Below are positions 6,158 to 16,176 of a stretch of DNA of 16,261 nucleotides, piece by piece. The translations under genes and the position numbers were made by a program. Position 1 is the stretch's first letter, and every line of letters begins with the position of its first letter. Location: contig CALXSA010000034.1 in the NCBI GenBank assembly GCA_944390995.1, positions 1-16,261 on the forward strand, given 5' to 3'. The DNA comes from an uncultured Clostridia bacterium (lineage in GTDB: Bacteria > Bacillota_A > Clostridia > TANB77 > CAG-508). The notes under the pieces were generated by a model. It made no database searches and was not told the origin of the DNA. It saw only the letters and a program-made list of their open reading frames with translations.

Positions 6158-6199
6158 AAAAAAGAAGGAGAAAAGTCTTAATATTTCTCCTTCTTTTTT
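6158..6199. terminator. Bidirectional terminator between glmS and the convergent gene
   Basis: A perfect 16-bp stem: AAAAAAGAAGGAGAAA (6158-6173) pairs with 6184-6199 around a 10-base loop. Each strand ends in a run of Ts, so it can stop both glmS (plus) and the minus-strand gene ending at 6236. Confidence 0.9.
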
Positions 6200-7233: not shown

Positions 7234-7539
7234 ATGGAGTTTAATACTATTATAGCTTTTCTAGCATGTATAATTTTCATATTTATATTTGGCAAAATAT
7301 TTATCTGGCCACTAAAGAACATATTTAAATTAATTTTAAATTCTATCCTGGGCGGGGTACTAATTTATATTATAAATATTGTGGGAATGAATTTTGGCTT
7401 TCACATAGGACTAAACCTAATAACAGCAATAACTGTTGGTCTTTTGGGCATACCAGGAGCAGCATTATTAGTTGTGCTAAAAATAATATTACGGTTAGAT
7501 GCAAATATCCCTATTCAAAAAAATTTTTATATGATATAA
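7234..7539 (+). CDS. bofA: BofA-family pro-sigma-K processing inhibitor
   Basis: In Bacillus, BofA sits in the outer forespore membrane and restrains the SpoIVFB protease, which activates sigma-K during sporulation. The 101-aa product has three hydrophobic segments (about 5-24, 34-55 and 60-87). It shows the family pattern: FGKIFIWPLKNIFKLILNS, then GGVLIYIINIVG, then LNLITAITVGLLGIPGAALL. The last 14 residues extend beyond the usual end. The ATG at 7234 follows AAAGGA at a rather long spacing. It lies 81 bases after yaaL and 47 bases before the ROK kinase gene. Its presence suggests a spore-forming lineage, although BofA homologues also occur in some lineages not known to sporulate. Confidence 0.9.
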   Translation: MEFNTIIAFLACIIFIFIFGKIFIWPLKNIFKLILNSILGGVLIYIINIVGMNFGFHIGLNLITAITVGLLGIPGAALLVVLKIILRLDANIPIQKNFYMI

Positions 7540-8712: not shown

Positions 8713-10599
8713 TTACACTTCCATTATTATAGGGAGTATCATCGGGTTGCGTTTTGTTCTTTGGAAAATGTAGTCTCTTAGGTCGTCCTTAAGAGTTGAT
8801 TTAATTGTAGACCAATCTCTTACTCCTTCTTCTTCGAAGGTTCTTACTTCTTGGTTTATTACTTTTTTCACATCTTCCATTAATGTTTCAGATTCTCTTA
8901 CATATACAAAGCCTCTTGATACAACATCTGGTCCAGAAATAATTTCTCCTGTACTTCCATCCATTGTCATAACTATTACGATTAAACCGTCTTGAGACAA
9001 ATGTTGTCTATCTCTTAAAACAATATTTCCTACATCTCCAACACCTAAGCCGTCCACAAGAATTTTTCCGCAAGGTACTGAATTTGTAATTTTGGCTTCT
9101 TTGCTGTTTACCTCAAGAGTTTTTCCATTTTCTAATATGAAAATGTTTTCTGGAGGTATACCCATTTTCTTACCTGTTTCCGCATGTGCTCGTAATTGTC
9201 TGTATTCACCATGCACAGGTATGAAAAATTTTGGTTTTGCAAGAGCTATTATTAATTTTTGTTCTTCTTGGCATGCGTGTCCAGATACGTGTATTGCCTC
9301 TAATGCGCTGTAAATTACTTCTGCTCCTATTTGCATTAAGTCATTTATTACGTTAGAAACTAATTTCTCGTTTCCAGGTATAGGTGTAGCAGAGATAATT
9401 ACCATGTCATTTGGTGTTATTACAACTTTTTTGTGTTCACCTGCTGCCATTCTTGTAAGTGCAGACATTGTCTCTCCCTGGCTTCCAGTAGTTATAATAA
9501 CTAATTGGTCGTCAGGATAGTTTTTAATCATATCAATATCAATAAACATGTTTGTAGGAGCATTGATATATCCTAACTCTCTTGCTGTTTCAATCATGTT
9601 TATCATACTTCTACCACAAACAGCAATTTTTCTACCATACTTCTCTGCTGAATTTACTATTTGCTGTACTCTATGCACATTTGATGCAAAAGTAGCAACA
9701 ACAATTCTTTTTGTGTTATTTTGAAATAACCTGTCAAACACTTCTCCTACTGTGCTTTCAGACATTGTGTAGCCTTTTCTCTCTGAGTTTGTACTGTCTG
9801 ACATTAATGCAATAACTCCTTTATTTCCTAATTCTGCAATTCTGCCTAAGTCCATTAGCTTATCATCAATAGGAGTAAAGTCCACCTTAAAGTCTCCTGT
9901 ATGAAGAACAACACCAACAGGTGTATGAATTGCAAGCATAACTGAGTCCGGTATACTGTGGTTACTTCTAATAAATTCTACCTTTATGCTACCGAAATTA
10001 ATTGTTTGACCCTGTTCTACTGGAATTAATTTCGTAGAAGCTAATAATTTATGCTCCTCAAGTTTGTTTTTTATCAAGCCAACAGTTAATTTTGTTGCAT
10101 AAATAGGCACATTTATCTGCCTTAATACATAAGGAATTGCGCCAATATGGTCTTCATGACCATGTGTTATAACCATTCCTTTAATTTTTTCCTTGTTTTT
10201 CTCAAGATAAGTTACATCTGGTATTACCAAATCAACTCCAAGCATGTCGTCTTCTGGGAATTCTAGCCCACAGTCAACTAACACTATTTCATTGCCATAC
10301 TCGAATACCGTAATATTTTTTCCTATCTCGTCTAAACCTCCTAGAGGTATTATTTTTAAATTATCTTTTTTAAATTCAAATTTTGGCAGACTTTTTCTTC
10401 TACTTTCAACAACCTTTTTTTCAATATTCTCTTTTGAAAATTTGTTGTCTAAATGACTCTCTCCTCTAGTTTCCCTTCCCCCGCTAGTTTTAAGTGTATT
10501 AGCTGCACTTTCTTTTTTGGCACTTTTTCTTGGTGCTCTTTTTCTCGTGTTTTCCGTTTTTACGAAAACTTTTTCTTCAACTGTTTTCTTTCTTTCCAT
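8713..10599 (-). CDS. rnj: Ribonuclease J
   Basis: Metallo-beta-lactamase/beta-CASP ribonuclease with endo- and 5'-exonuclease activity in RNA decay and rRNA maturation. The family core starts at LKIIPLGGLDEIGKN (81-95). The zinc motif HGHEDH is at 146-151, LHTGDFKVDF follows, then the beta-CASP region and HVSGHA, and the C-terminal domain after VPCGKILVDG. At 628 aa it is about 75 residues longer than typical RNase J. The extra N-terminus is Lys/Arg/Ser/Glu-rich, probably disordered, and RNA-contacting at most by inference. The ATG at 10599 follows AAGGAGAG. No good promoter lies in the 200 bases upstream; the strongest one is at 11063-11091, ahead of an intrinsic terminator at 10809-10843. 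Confidence 0.96.
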   Translation of the reverse strand: MERKKTVEEKVFVKTENTRKRAPRKSAKKESAANTLKTSGGRETRGESHLDNKFSKENIEKKVVESRRKSLPKFEFKKDNLKIIPLGGLDEIGKNITVFEYGNEIVLVDCGLEFPEDDMLGVDLVIPDVTYLEKNKEKIKGMVITHGHEDHIGAIPYVLRQINVPIYATKLTVGLIKNKLEEHKLLASTKLIPVEQGQTINFGSIKVEFIRSNHSIPDSVMLAIHTPVGVVLHTGDFKVDFTPIDDKLMDLGRIAELGNKGVIALMSDSTNSERKGYTMSESTVGEVFDRLFQNNTKRIVVATFASNVHRVQQIVNSAEKYGRKIAVCGRSMINMIETARELGYINAPTNMFIDIDMIKNYPDDQLVIITTGSQGETMSALTRMAAGEHKKVVITPNDMVIISATPIPGNEKLVSNVINDLMQIGAEVIYSALEAIHVSGHACQEEQKLIIALAKPKFFIPVHGEYRQLRAHAETGKKMGIPPENIFILENGKTLEVNSKEAKITNSVPCGKILVDGLGVGDVGNIVLRDRQHLSQDGLIVIVMTMDGSTGEIISGPDVVSRGFVYVRESETLMEDVKKVINQEVRTFEEEGVRDWSTIKSTLKDDLRDYIFQRTKRNPMILPIIMEV

Positions 10600-10770
10600 T
10601 TAATAAAATCTCTCCTTTTCTAATTATTAAGATGTTTCTAATACTACTCTAAATATAAAAGCATATTATCAATCTCACCGTATTTGTTGTATCTCTTTAA
10701 AATAAGGTCTATCTTTTACATATAATGTTACAAAAAACAAATTTTTATAACACAATTTAAAAAAATATTA

Positions 10771-10809
10771 AATTATTATTACAGCCGCTCTTACAAAATT
10801 ATTATTACA
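10771..10809. repeat. Short AT-rich direct repeat upstream of rnj
   Basis: AATTATTATTACA occurs at 10771-10783 and again at 10797-10809, separated by 13 bases that include the only GC-rich patch nearby (CAGCCGCTC begins at 10782). The second copy overlaps the T tract of the minus-strand terminator. This may be chance in AT-rich DNA. Confidence 0.35.
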
Positions 10810-11056
10810 AAAAAGTAGTTTATACTATCCATTATAAACTACTAAAACCAGATTAAATATTAAGTCTCTTACTACATTTTTACACGCCAAAATTCAACAT
10901 GCTTATCTTTCCGCACAATAAGCATTTTAGCAAGGCATGATTTGTTTTGCATGAATTAATTTGCAAAACCTATTTTTATATTCTCAATAACCCGTTCAAT
11001 AATTTACAATATTTTTTAAAATTTCTCTCATCTTTACCTTATTTTGGTAACAACTG
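10808..11056 (-). ncRNA. Candidate structured RNA of about 250 nt upstream of rnj
   Basis: A complete transcription unit without a protein gene. It starts from a perfect consensus promoter at 11063-11091 and ends at an intrinsic terminator at 10809-10843. In between, on the minus strand, are three further hairpins: TTACC/GGTAA near the 5' end (11034-11050), GTTTTGCA/TGCAAAAC (8 bp, 10944-10969), and ATGCTTAT/ATAAGCAT (8 bp, 10899-10925) with loop TGTGCGGAAAG. The longest plausible reading frame is an 11-codon one at 10996-11031. I do not recognise it as 6S RNA, SRP RNA, tmRNA, RNase P RNA or a T-box. It could be a free small RNA or a prematurely terminated leader of rnj, which begins about 200 bases further on. 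Confidence 0.6.
10809..10843 (-). terminator. Intrinsic terminator of the orphan RNA or rnj leader
   Basis: A perfect 11-bp stem, AGTAGTTTATA (10814-10824) with TATAAACTACT (10833-10843), and an 8-base loop. On the minus strand it is followed by a run of six Ts (the first closes the stem). No protein gene precedes it on that strand within 300 bases. Confidence 0.8.
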
Positions 11057-11062
11057 TAAATT

Positions 11063-11091
11063 ATTATACAACAAAAAATATTATTTGTCAA
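11063..11091 (-). promoter_or_regulatory. Perfect consensus promoter of the orphan RNA
   Basis: On the minus strand TTGACA (11086-11091), a 17-base spacer and TATAAT (11063-11068) match the housekeeping consensus exactly. Transcription would start near 11056 and run toward rnj. Confidence 0.85.
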
Positions 11092-11123
11092 ATGTTTTTT
11101 GCAAACGTAGGTTTGTAGTGTTG

Positions 11124-11156
11124 CAGGACAGACATATTTTAAAAACTATTGTCCTG
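11124..11156. promoter_or_regulatory. Dyad between two divergent promoters
   Basis: CAGGACA (11124-11130) and TGTCCTG (11150-11156) form a perfect 7-base inverted repeat with a 19-base AT-rich centre. It sits midway between the minus-strand promoter at 11063-11091 and the plus-strand promoter at 11168-11196, where an operator for both would be expected. No regulator gene is adjacent. Confidence 0.4.
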
Positions 11157-11167
11157 TAATTTTGTAA

Positions 11168-11196
11168 TTGACTTTTGCATATCTATCCTATATAAT
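11168..11196 (+). promoter_or_regulatory. Promoter of the 113-aa hypothetical gene
   Basis: TTGACT (11168-11173) and TATAAT (11191-11196) are separated by 17 bases, one mismatch from full consensus. The start near 11203 leaves a leader of about 79 bases with a small GTTCT/AGAAC hairpin. Confidence 0.8.
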
Positions 11197-11281
11197 TGAC
11201 CAAGAGAAGTTATCTTCCAATTATTGTTCCTTTAACCTTTTTATGTTCTTGAATTAGAACGACCTTTAAGGAGGGGAGATT

Positions 11282-11623
11282 ATGTTTAGGACTTTAGTAG
11301 CAACTATTCAGCACATACGGTTCGAATTGTCGAATAAGCGGCCTTATCTAGTCTTTTATGTAACAAGCGCTGACAACTATTCCGAGTTTTTGAGGTTTGA
11401 TTTCACACATCCCAGGACCAAACAGCTCATGCTGGCTTTGCTGGAGTACTCTGGTGTGGATGATATTTCGAAGCTGGAAAACAAGAAAATTTGTGTGTTA
11501 CTAAAAGATGGAAAAGTTTATGCTTTGGGGCATTTGTTCGAGGATAAGTTTTTTACTGTGGAGCAAGAAAATGATGAGCTTATTATCAAAACTTTTGCGG
11601 AAATTGCTAATGAAGACCACTAA
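11282..11623 (+). CDS. Hypothetical protein, 113 aa
   Basis: Not recognised. A small soluble protein with alternating beta strands, a short helix (TKQLMLALLEY) and a final strand-rich part with KKICVLLKDGKVYALGHLFEDKFF. It has no membrane segment, signal or cysteine pair. The ATG at 11282 follows AAGGAGGGG at good spacing. A near-consensus promoter (11168-11196) and a strong terminator (11636-11667) make it a well-defined single-gene unit, so it is very likely real. Hand-counted lines are about 38-52% G+C, above the neighbours, with CTG and CGG codons that are rare nearby. This could mean recent acquisition. Confidence 0.8.
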   Translation: MFRTLVATIQHIRFELSNKRPYLVFYVTSADNYSEFLRFDFTHPRTKQLMLALLEYSGVDDISKLENKKICVLLKDGKVYALGHLFEDKFFTVEQENDELIIKTFAEIANEDH

Positions 11624-14522: not shown

Positions 14523-15803
14523 CTATGGTACTAACTTATCAATTCCTCCCATGTAAGGGCGAAGTACTTCAGGGATATTTATGCTTCCGTCTTGATTGTA
14601 GTTGTTTTCCAAAAATGCGATTAGCATACGAGGTGGGGCAACTACAGTATTATTCAATGTGTGGGCATAATAATTACCTTTTTCGCCTTTAATTCTAATT
14701 CCTAAACGCCTTGCTTGAGCATCTGTTAAGTTAGAACAGCTGCCAACTTCAAAATATTTTTGCTGTCTTGGGCTCCATGCTTCTACATCACAGCTTTTTG
14801 CTTTTAAGTCGGCTAAATCGCCACTGCAACATTCAAGTGTACGTACTGGTATGTCCATACTTCTAAATAGCTCAACTGTATATTGCCACATCTTTTCATA
14901 CCAATTCCAGCTGTCTTCTGGTTCACATACAACAATCATTTCCTGCTTTTCAAATTGATGTATACGGTATACTCCACGTTCTTCAATTCCATGTGCTCCT
15001 TTTTCTTTTCTAAAACATGGTGAGTATGATGTCATTGTATATGGCATGTTTTCTTTGGCAAGAATTTGTCCTTTGAATTTACCAATCATAGAATGCTCAC
15101 TTGTCCCAATAAGGTATAAATCTTCGCCCTCTATTTTATACATCATGGCGTCCATTTCTTCAAAGCTCATAACACCAGTAACTACATTACTACGTATCAT
15201 GTATGGTGGTATGCAATAAGTAAAGCCTTTATTTATCATAAAGTCCCTTGCATAAGATAACACAGCAGAATGAAGCCTTGCAATATCTCCTACCAAATAG
15301 TAGAAACCGTTTCCTGCAACTCTACGAGCAGAGTCTAAGTCTAGCCCGCCAAAGCTTTCCATTATATCTGCATGGTATGGTATTTCGTAATCTGGAACAA
15401 CAGGTTCACCAAACTTTTCTATTTCTACATTCTTGCTATCATCTTCACCAATTGGAACTGACTCATGAATAATGTTTGGAATTTTAAGCATTCTCTCATT
15501 AATTTGCTCTGAGAGCTCTGTTTCCTGTTTTTCAACTTCTTCAAGTTCTTTATTAATATTCTGAACTTTTGCTTTTATTTCTTCAGCCTCGTCTTTTTTT
15601 CCATTTTTCATAAGATTGCCAATCTCAGAGCTCAAAGAATTCCTTTGGCTTCTAAGCTCATCACCTTTTAGTTTAGCTTGTCTATTTTGGGTGTCTAATT
15701 CTAATATTTCATCAATCAAAACAAGTTTATGGTCCTGAAATTTTTTTCTAATGTTCTCTTTTACAAGTTCAGGGTTTTCCCTAATCAATTTAATATCTAT
15801 CAT
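14523..15803 (-). CDS. serS: Serine--tRNA ligase
   Basis: Class II synthetase that charges tRNA(Ser). The 426-aa product has the usual length. The N-terminal tRNA-binding coiled-coil arm spans about residues 28-105. The catalytic core follows, with RRVAGNGFYYL (160-170), TSEHSMIGKF (234-243), motif 2 as CFRKEKGAHGIEERGVYRIHQFEK (263-286), FEVGSCSNLTDAQARRLGI (351-369) and motif 3 as TLNNTVVAPPRMLIAFLENN (382-401). TSEH and the APPR version of motif 3 differ from the Escherichia coli type (TAEV, AVGR). The ATG at 15803 follows GGAGG (15809-15813) by 5 bases. An in-frame ATG at 15815 overlaps that site and is rejected. A T-box with a serine specifier controls it. Confidence 0.96.
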   Translation of the reverse strand: MIDIKLIRENPELVKENIRKKFQDHKLVLIDEILELDTQNRQAKLKGDELRSQRNSLSSEIGNLMKNGKKDEAEEIKAKVQNINKELEEVEKQETELSEQINERMLKIPNIIHESVPIGEDDSKNVEIEKFGEPVVPDYEIPYHADIMESFGGLDLDSARRVAGNGFYYLVGDIARLHSAVLSYARDFMINKGFTYCIPPYMIRSNVVTGVMSFEEMDAMMYKIEGEDLYLIGTSEHSMIGKFKGQILAKENMPYTMTSYSPCFRKEKGAHGIEERGVYRIHQFEKQEMIVVCEPEDSWNWYEKMWQYTVELFRSMDIPVRTLECCSGDLADLKAKSCDVEAWSPRQQKYFEVGSCSNLTDAQARRLGIRIKGEKGNYYAHTLNNTVVAPPRMLIAFLENNYNQDGSINIPEVLRPYMGGIDKLVP

Positions 15804-15932
15804 TTTAACCTCCATCCGAGCGAATTTACGCTTCTTTCCAAAAATTTTATTTAATAACCTCTTTTAAACAATGCACATATCAATAAATTGCATATGACAA
15901 TGTTCTTTAAAAAAATTTTAGGTAATACCTTT

Positions 15933-16176
15933 TAAATCAAAAAGCCCTTATGCTAAATGCATAAGGGCGAATTTTTCCGCGGTACCACCTTAATTGTCAA
16001 TAAAATTGACATCTCTTAAAATGCTTATAACCTAGCATCACCCGGTTTTATTTTCATAAAAAGCTTCTAAAAGTAGATTCACAAAACATTTTAAACTATT
16101 TCCACCAACCATAGCCTCTCTTTATAAAATTATCTTTGCTACTAATCTTTTATCAAACGCCTTTTTATATAACAAT
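15933..16176 (-). promoter_or_regulatory. T-box leader with UCU (serine) specifier
   Basis: Senses uncharged tRNA(Ser) and permits read-through into serS. On the minus strand the hallmark AGGTGGTACCGCG lies at 15978-15990, where it pairs with the tRNA acceptor end. The competing terminator GCCCTTATGC/GCATAAGGGC (15944-15968, perfect 10-bp stem) is followed by TTTTTGATTT. Stem I includes GATTAGTAGCAAAG near 16150-16137 and the GGTTGGTGGAAA region near 16110. The specifier TCT (16075-16077) sits in GTGAATCTACT, a UCU serine codon followed by A. About 130 bases separate the terminator from the serS ATG. Confidence 0.93.

Follow-up and report, generated by a model that had tools for sequence, protein, structure and literature searches.

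A predicted leader of the RNase J gene, conserved in one order of Clostridia, and its probable role in transcription attenuation

Results

The window (the whole 16,261-nt stretch of DNA analyzed here) carries rnj, the gene for RNase J, on its minus strand, with an array of predicted RNA elements between its start codon at 10599 and a promoter further upstream. In order of transcription, the features are:

11063–11091, minus strand: sigma-A-type promoter of the rnj leader, TTGACA-17-TATAAT, 12 of 12 consensus matches
11034–11050, minus strand: P0, a 5′-proximal hairpin (UUACC-AAAAUAA-GGUAA) about 7 nt from the predicted start, suggested by covariation
11025–11032, minus strand: conserved single-stranded GAUGAGAG, with GAGA invariant in 49 of 49 aligned leaders
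11009–11028, minus strand: 5′ strand of the predicted long-range helix P1, drawn from relatives, diverged in the window and overlapping the antiterminator strand (−8.2 kcal/mol here)
10992–11013, minus strand: putative antiterminator strand AATATTGTAAATTATTGAACGG, ending in CGG site 1 (10994–10992) and pairing with the terminator 5′ arm
10943–10970, minus strand: 8-bp hairpin GGTTTTGC..GCAAAACA, folded and located in the window only
10899–10925, minus strand: hairpin whose apical loop TGTGCGGAAAG contains CGG site 2; CGG lies in a loop more often than random positions do
10831–10849, minus strand: putative antiterminator partner, comprising the 5′ flank and 5′ arm of the terminator, from complementarity
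10809–10843, minus strand: predicted intrinsic terminator, a hairpin (10843–10814) and T run found by folding, with a candidate in most leaders
10751–10769, minus strand: putative P1 3′ strand, downstream of the terminator, from a pairing of −8.2 kcal/mol
10609–10619, minus strand: rnj Shine-Dalgarno region AAAAGGAGAGA; GGAGAGA is commoner at rnj than at other genes
8713–10599, minus strand: rnj, encoding RNase J (TIGR00649; 628 aa), whose N terminus carries a basic extension

The promoter, which an earlier sequence-only reading had called perfect, matches the consensus throughout, from TTGACA starting at 11091 to TATAAT ending at 11063. It is the only one on the minus strand among seven promoter-like sites found at the scan threshold in 10500–11400. 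Transcription is predicted to start near 11057, as read off the −10 box. The 11-bp terminator claimed in the same reading was recovered by folding as a hairpin followed by a T run (AGTAGTTTATA/TATAAACTACT, −9.7 kcal/mol); it had been absent from the first promoter/terminator scan, which demands at least three G-C pairs. Two further hairpins from that reading, the one with loop UGUGCGGAAAG (10925–10899) and that at 10970–10943, also proved real. No ORF of at least 80 aa, the length from which frames were listed, lies in the interval 10808–11091, in keeping with the claim that it holds no protein gene. The terminator ends 214 nt before the rnj ATG, close to the 200 or so bases first given, and the downstream gene had been named correctly: its product scores 678.6 bits against TIGR00649 (cut-off 400) and 766.3 bits against NF047419, under the cut-off of 820. 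A helix from the window fold, UAAUUUACAGU/AUUGUAAAUUA, was rejected; the predicted start would leave its outer half untranscribed, and by inspection the helix is broken without compensation in two relatives (L008/L009). By eye, an 11-codon ATG-to-TGA frame (11030–10995, minus strand) starts at the conserved GAUGAGA and stops within the antiterminator strand; most relatives are without its ATG because GAAGAGA replaces GAUGAGA.

Searches of the whole window for tRNA and tmRNA found none, and a plasmid DNA search gave no match. Rfam 15 had nothing within the interval at E ≤ 1 and no match at the gathering threshold in ten relatives (115 kb). The earlier impression that no known family is present holds for both, 6S RNA and riboswitches included; with no threshold-level covariance-model score, every Rfam 15 family (6S, rne-II, riboswitches and others) was rejected as an identity for the leader. 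The folding energy of the window leader is mildly unusual (z −2.04; 5 of 200 shuffles as good), a weak signal that leaves the case to comparison with relatives. By that comparison the leader goes beyond chance, since its 5′ element is conserved, P0 covaries and terminator-like hairpins are enriched.

Relatives were drawn from an RNase J scan covering 84,980 species, each represented by a single genome, from which the best 80 of at least 475 candidate loci were taken. With the window these make 81 sources; all 80 loci are metagenome-assembled and titled Clostridia or subgroups. Three (L005, L012, L029) have too little upstream sequence, leaving 78 readable leaders. As the loci are mutually related, no test over the leaders counts independent events. 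An nhmmer search with the 331-nt unit returned a matching region, on the same strand and immediately 5′ of rnj, in many loci; the alignments cover P0 and GAGA and little of the leader's middle. A promoter with 17-nt spacing stands 5′ of rnj in all 78 readable leaders, 76 of them with exact TTGAC[ACT] and TATAAT and the other two with one mismatch. From promoter to rnj start codon, the latter chosen by Shine-Dalgarno, the distance ranges from 57 to 731 nt. The Shine-Dalgarno GGAGAGA occurs in 36 of 71 rnj ribosome-binding sites (RBSs) versus 16 of 349 for other genes; GGAGG is scarce at rnj (3/71 versus 133/349). GGAGAGA echoes the GAGA of the 5′ element.

The 5′ element runs from the predicted start through about 7 nt to the P0 hairpin and then to (A)AGA(A/U)GAGAUUUAUAUA. 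Its alignment comprises 49 of 71 listed leaders. P0 has 28 cells changed on both sides, versus 7.0 in shuffles and 2–14 in slid structures, and a covariation score of 0.291 (0.128 shuffled, 0.019–0.070 slid). Double-change pairs (3 versus 2.3) and further pair types (9 versus 9.7) in P0 were not in excess over shuffles. Homologues upstream of rnj were collected, as had been proposed, and a covariance model of the element was run on the 81 sources; at E ≤ 1 it recognized the rnj leader in 71 (70 at 0.0019 or better, L066 at 0.86). Training had used 48 of the matched sources, whereas the other 23 had no part in it; one training row, L070, was missed. Weak matches away from the leader fell in L040 (E 0.01) and L014 (E 0.46). 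A recognizable 5′ element is absent from L034, L036, L038, L055, L063 and L080. The first three of these have the same promoter and no 5′ hairpin, and their leader opens directly with the CGG hairpin.

Whole genomes were searched with the same model. Of 24, 23 have a single strong match (E 5.3e-5 or better), at rnj, and the next best match anywhere reaches E 0.0096; seven weak matches retrieved as loci of 1.6–3.0 kb contain no rnj. In a sample of the order, 54 of 143 genomes match at E ≤ 0.01, one match apiece under strict filters. Thirty of these were taken as loci, and rnj is present in 29; the thirtieth (L125) is short. The remaining 89 genomes gave no match to the 5′ element under the strict filters. 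One of them, G029 (L142), has TTGACT-17-TATAAT and two CGG 5′ of rnj, so divergent leaders are likely missed by the model. In a class sample, 4 of 291 genomes match at E ≤ 0.001, all four also within the order sample.

Judged from these comparisons, the 5′ element is the rnj leader of one order of Clostridia, and we regard its status as a conserved rnj leader as close to certain. It was found at the RNase gene only. Being tied to rnj with one strong match per genome, it is neither an orphan RNA nor a multi-gene riboswitch, and a multi-gene element of the latter kind was dropped because whole genomes hold no second convincing site. The orphan or small-RNA reading offered earlier is thus not supported as the primary role, given the position of the element 5′ of rnj in relatives. 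Termination should nevertheless yield a leader RNA of roughly 250 nt, for which a function of its own is conceivable. One metagenome bin (CANQUT01) contributed two distinct rnj loci, L023 and L043, both preceded by the leader; possibly two species were binned together, or else one species has two rnj genes.

Terminator candidates at least as stable as −4 kcal/mol and followed by a T run are present in 59 of 78 leaders versus 15.0 expected, and at −8 kcal/mol in 31 versus 2.4, the expectation being taken from 624 dinucleotide-shuffled leaders. No terminator was called in 19 of the 78. An attenuator has an intrinsic terminator between promoter and gene, and a predicted one was found there. In the window, 11013–10992 can pair with 10849–10831 as a 20-bp antiterminator helix of −13.3 kcal/mol. 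The generality of this pairing was assessed by sliding a 22-nt window along the leader against the terminator 5′ arm plus 10 nt of flank, in the 49 leaders that have a CGG upstream of a terminator called at −5.5 kcal/mol or better. Pairing was strongest 6 nt on the 5′ side of the first CGG (mean z −1.71 versus rnj coding windows) and ranged from −0.47 to +0.26 from 6 nt beyond CGG onward. A second, smaller dip 60 nt before CGG (−1.53) contains 19 values. With the bare 5′ arm the dip was weak and broad; it was sharp when CGG-aligned with the 10-nt flank. Pairing equalled by no more than 5% of CDS windows was seen in only 20 of the 49 leaders, and 15 gave no signal (z above −0.5; L040, L050, L062, L064 and L076 among them), perhaps in part through miscalled terminators.

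Exchange of strands between lineages was also informative. Three hand-chosen groups, A, D and C (14, 3 and 6 leaders), were compared. Antiterminator strands of A pair at −10.1 kcal/mol with A arms and at −3.2 with D arms; those of D pair at −14.1 with D arms and at −2.7 with A arms; those of C give −8.2 with D, −8.1 with C and −3.3 with A arms. On sequence, antiterminator and terminator strands have changed together in the two best-separated lineages, A and D. An upstream strand complementary to the terminator arm is found, with compensatory change, though C is inseparable from D. Antiterminator and terminator energies are alike within each group (A, −10.1 versus −11.6; D, −14.3 versus −13.1; C, −8.7 versus −7.7 kcal/mol), and similar energy of both folds is what a switch needs. 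Over all 49 leaders, pairing with the own arm averaged −7.6 and cross pairing −5.4, with the own partner at a median rank of only 0.31 and 0.29. We consider it likely that the two strands form an antiterminator/terminator switch.

A second predicted interaction, the long-range helix P1, joins the GAGAUUUAUAUA strand to a strand such as UAUAUAAAUU, which in most leaders follows the terminator and occupies roughly −55 to −22 relative to the rnj ATG. In the first test, 43 of 71 leaders fell within the best 5% of shuffles (mean z −1.98), with the wrong GAGA taken in L053, L054 and L062 and the right one in the control-gene comparison. Mean energy was −9.9 kcal/mol; the same strands gave −5.7 against sequence upstream of 349 other genes and −6.9 when matched to rnj regions from different loci. 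The own rnj region beat every control in 38 of 51 loci having at least four controls. Along the leader, pairing peaked at −40 (z −1.58) and lay between −0.33 and +0.51 outside −60 to −25. In a fixed gap-free register, a perfect 11 bp was found in 18 of 71 leaders versus 0, 0, 0, 0, 0 and 2 in six control windows, and at least 10 pairs in 35 leaders versus 9 and 7 in two upstream controls and 0–7 in coding controls. Variants of the two strands track each other (GAUUUUAUUAA with UUAAUAAGAUU, GAUUUAUAUAU with AUAUAUAAAUU). P1 is very probably real for the family, and its formation requires that transcription has read through. It is poorly represented by the window, where z is +0.37 at the expected place; the best partner there, 10769–10751, lies about 150 nt before the ATG (−8.2 kcal/mol). 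Sequestration of the RBS by the P1 3′ strand was rejected, as own pairing is weaker than in other genes (−4.4 versus −5.7 kcal/mol, z +0.13).

Downstream of the 5′ element, CGG is the top enriched triplet (132 versus 37.5 expected from dinucleotide shuffles). It is present in 71 of 78 leaders with the loose consensus UG(A/U)NCGGRAA. CGGAAA is not enriched at 359 other genes of the same loci (−150 to −12; 3 versus 6.1). A CGG-loop hairpin of −2 kcal/mol or better is found in 61% of 71 leaders versus 20% at random positions. In 28 leaders, 211 of 224 outer-stem cells pair, versus 144 ± 7.5 with strands permuted, a figure inflated because these leaders were picked and trimmed for folding. The fifth pair is GC in 17, AU in 4, UA in 3, CG in 2 and GU in 2; such varied pair types speak for a kept stem. 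A mini-hairpin closing directly on CGG (UUU/AAA) was rejected, no fixed register having beaten permutation by z 3.

A weaker CGGAAA excess 5′ of rnj is also seen beyond the order. Sequence upstream of rnj was taken from other Clostridia, L142 being left out as a member of the order, and 117 of 128 regions were usable. Among their 3-, 4- and 6-mers, CGG, CGGA and CGGAAA rank first, at 189 versus 101.7, 92 versus 31.9 and 26 versus 4.5 in shuffles. CGGA falls within −60 to −13 in 33 of 117 regions (9.8 expected) and in two windows further up in 24 and 29 (11.7 and 10.7 expected); its occurrence is therefore not limited to the Shine-Dalgarno. CGGAAA exceeds shuffles 4.8-fold upstream of rnj, versus 1.8-fold in rnj coding sequence, 2.2-fold further upstream and 1.3-fold antisense; since coding and further-upstream sequence also exceed shuffles, the shuffle control overstates the class-wide signal, and the remaining excess is some 2.2- to 2.7-fold. 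An old class-wide CGGAAA site is possible from these counts. Seven loci, not all of them from the order (L063, L074, L142, L150, L160, L169 and L180), have an rnj leader that is short or divergent, with CGG motifs between a TATAAT-like box and the start codon. It looks, from such leaders, as if the CGG site predates the attenuator.

The RNase J proteins of these species carry an N-terminal extension of 42–183 residues (median 88 in 78 proteins; 30% Lys+Arg); in the window protein, 84 residues precede the conserved core. Sixty genomes sampled from the class gave 57 near-full-length RNase J matches, and 49 of these have frames of 553–610 aa, so that most are without the extension. The other eight belong to order genomes G001 and G029 and to G210, G176, G200, G161, G198 and G184, which lie outside the order or are unplaced; further long frames occur in the class beyond those eight. 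Tailed RNase J is also found elsewhere in the class, in G210, G176 and G200. Co-occurrence of basic tail and leader on one branch amounts to at best one evolutionary event. An element at rnj only, together with a basic tail of RNA-binding type, makes autogenous control the simplest hypothesis; RNase J itself may tentatively be put forward as the ligand. CsrA was considered as a reader of the CGG loops and rejected, a CsrA gene having been found in 0 of 24 genomes (the control search was positive in 3 of 14 known genomes).

Discussion

The sequence-only reading had left a choice between a small RNA and an attenuated rnj leader, and the latter gains from rnj linkage in relatives, terminator enrichment, the antiterminator found in many leaders and P1. 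On balance, we favor 10808–11091 as an rnj mRNA leader and transcription attenuator, most likely for RNase J feedback. The anatomy of the leader is supported by comparison, though not in every leader; that cells make use of it, in which direction it acts and what it binds are inferred. Two exclusive folds would decide between termination and read-through. With the switch on, the strand ending at CGG site 1 would pair with the terminator 5′ arm and polymerase would read through, and the resulting mRNA would close P1, joining its 5′ end region to the segment before the rnj RBS. With the switch off, a factor would hold the CGG site 1 strand, the terminator would form and only the leader RNA of about 250 nt would be made. 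The factor would most likely be RNase J or an RNA-decay partner, acting on CGG site 1 and the CGG loop, and surplus RNase J would then switch off its own transcription. The opposite sign, in which the factor stabilizes the antiterminator, is possible. A more specific version, in which RNase J binds the CGG motifs of the nascent leader and blocks the antiterminator, with CGGAAA an old rnj operator that many Clostridia would carry in short 5′ UTRs and that this order would have built into the attenuator, is conceivable but unlikely. If true, it would make for a nuclease controlled by attenuation and not by decay of its own mRNA.

Several other explanations compete with this attenuator. Its sensor could be another factor signalling RNA-decay load, be it a protein (ribosomal, or RNA-binding of the KH or S1 type), an RNA or a metabolite; the CGG sites resemble a site for a trans-acting factor and, with CsrA missing, some other reader is needed, but confinement of the 5′ element to rnj favors an rnj-specific loop, and we hold this doubtful. 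Rather less likely is a constitutive stability leader, in which P0 and P1 shield the 5′ end from 5′-3′ exonuclease and leave the RBS open while the terminator lowers dose. P1 does connect the 5′ region to just before the Shine-Dalgarno, and in 52 of 68 leaders the RBS is predicted to be more accessible when the 5′ element is present (0.71 versus 0.63). Such a leader, however, would leave unexplained both the antiterminator/terminator match in lineages A and D and the CGG sites.

That the main product is a free small RNA of about 250 nt acting elsewhere, with rnj a mere neighbor fed by read-through, appears improbable. The consensus promoter and terminator enclose a compact unit, and CGG sites in loops could be seed or protein-binding sites. 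A stand-alone small RNA would, however, sit at loci independent of one downstream gene, whereas strong matches were found 5′ of rnj wherever the neighbor is readable; P1 moreover links the leader to the rnj RBS region, and relatives align over P0 and GAGA and little in the middle. A translational switch, in which the P1 3′ strand hides the rnj RBS unless the RBS-like 5′ element captures that strand, has GGAGAGA/GAGAU common to element and RBS in its favor, yet it is barely credible given the weaker-than-control pairing of that strand with the RBS reported above.

Leaders built on a terminator and an antiterminator are familiar from the T-box, riboswitches, the LicT/SacY RAT and TRAP. The rnj attenuator as proposed is like them in having two exclusive helices that decide read-through, but no such family reached threshold at the rnj leader. 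CsrA/RsmA binding hairpins have GGA in apical loops, often at two sites per leader, and are alike in both respects; the constant part of the rnj leaders is, however, CGG and not GGA, and the genomes searched gave no CsrA. Leaders of RNase E, among them the E. coli rne 5′ UTR element, which we take to be the one called rne5, and Pseudomonas rne-II, are likewise described, in the available part of the sources, as structured 5′ UTRs of a main mRNA-decay enzyme. They belong to another enzyme, and the rnj leader has no Rfam match and a predicted intrinsic terminator and antiterminator in place of decay control.

In the part of a review available here, RNase E, PNPase and RNase III (genes rne, pnp and rnc) are given as autoregulated RNases, and E. 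coli RNase E is said to bind a stem-loop of its own leader (PMC3997798). The candidate structured RNA rne-II is assigned to Pseudomonadales, and the portion of that source at hand makes no mention of RNase J (PMC2864571). Also comparable is RNase Y of Bacillus subtilis, a Gram-positive decay enzyme with self-control of its mRNA; according to the accessible part of a 2023 study, the rny 5′ UTR is cleaved and control proceeds by cleavage and RNase J1 trimming, mostly via the ORF, with neither attenuator nor long-range helix described there for rny (PMC10303841). No title dealing with a leader for RNase J or with attenuation of rnj emerged from a literature search, mainly of open-access work with most subscription papers outside its scope.

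The leader bears on how bacteria without RNase E set their level of RNase J, and probably lets certain Clostridia tune a main RNA-degrading enzyme. With its dedicated, conserved leader, rnj would offer a well-defined switch, a candidate site for binding and the individual base pairs at which mutations could be aimed. Annotation gains a new class of leader, for Clostridia represented here by metagenome-assembled genomes, and the CGG motif is testable in culturable Clostridia.

Other features of the window

A T-box leader (RF00230) lies at 15960–16166 on the minus strand, the only T-box in the window (101.7 bits; gathering threshold 93). It adjoins, just downstream, an ORF at 14523–15815 (minus) that looks to us like seryl-tRNA synthetase. 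Two overlapping minus-strand ORFs, 2122–2751 and 2648–2935 (region 2122–2935), look like one family 2 glycosyltransferase split by a frameshift or sequencing error. Between converging ORFs, a near-perfect inverted repeat at 6158–6199 (AAGAAGGAGAAA..TTTCTCCTTCTT) has T runs on both strands and sub-threshold Rfam matches on both, and is probably a bidirectional terminator. A BofA-like protein is encoded at 7234–7539 on the plus strand (TIGR02862, named pro-sigma-K processing inhibitor; 62.5 bits, cut-off 53.35). Divergent from the rnj promoter, a 113-aa ORF at 11282–11623 (plus) has no NCBIfam match; a plus-strand promoter-like TTGACT-17-TATAAT at 11168–11196 could serve it.
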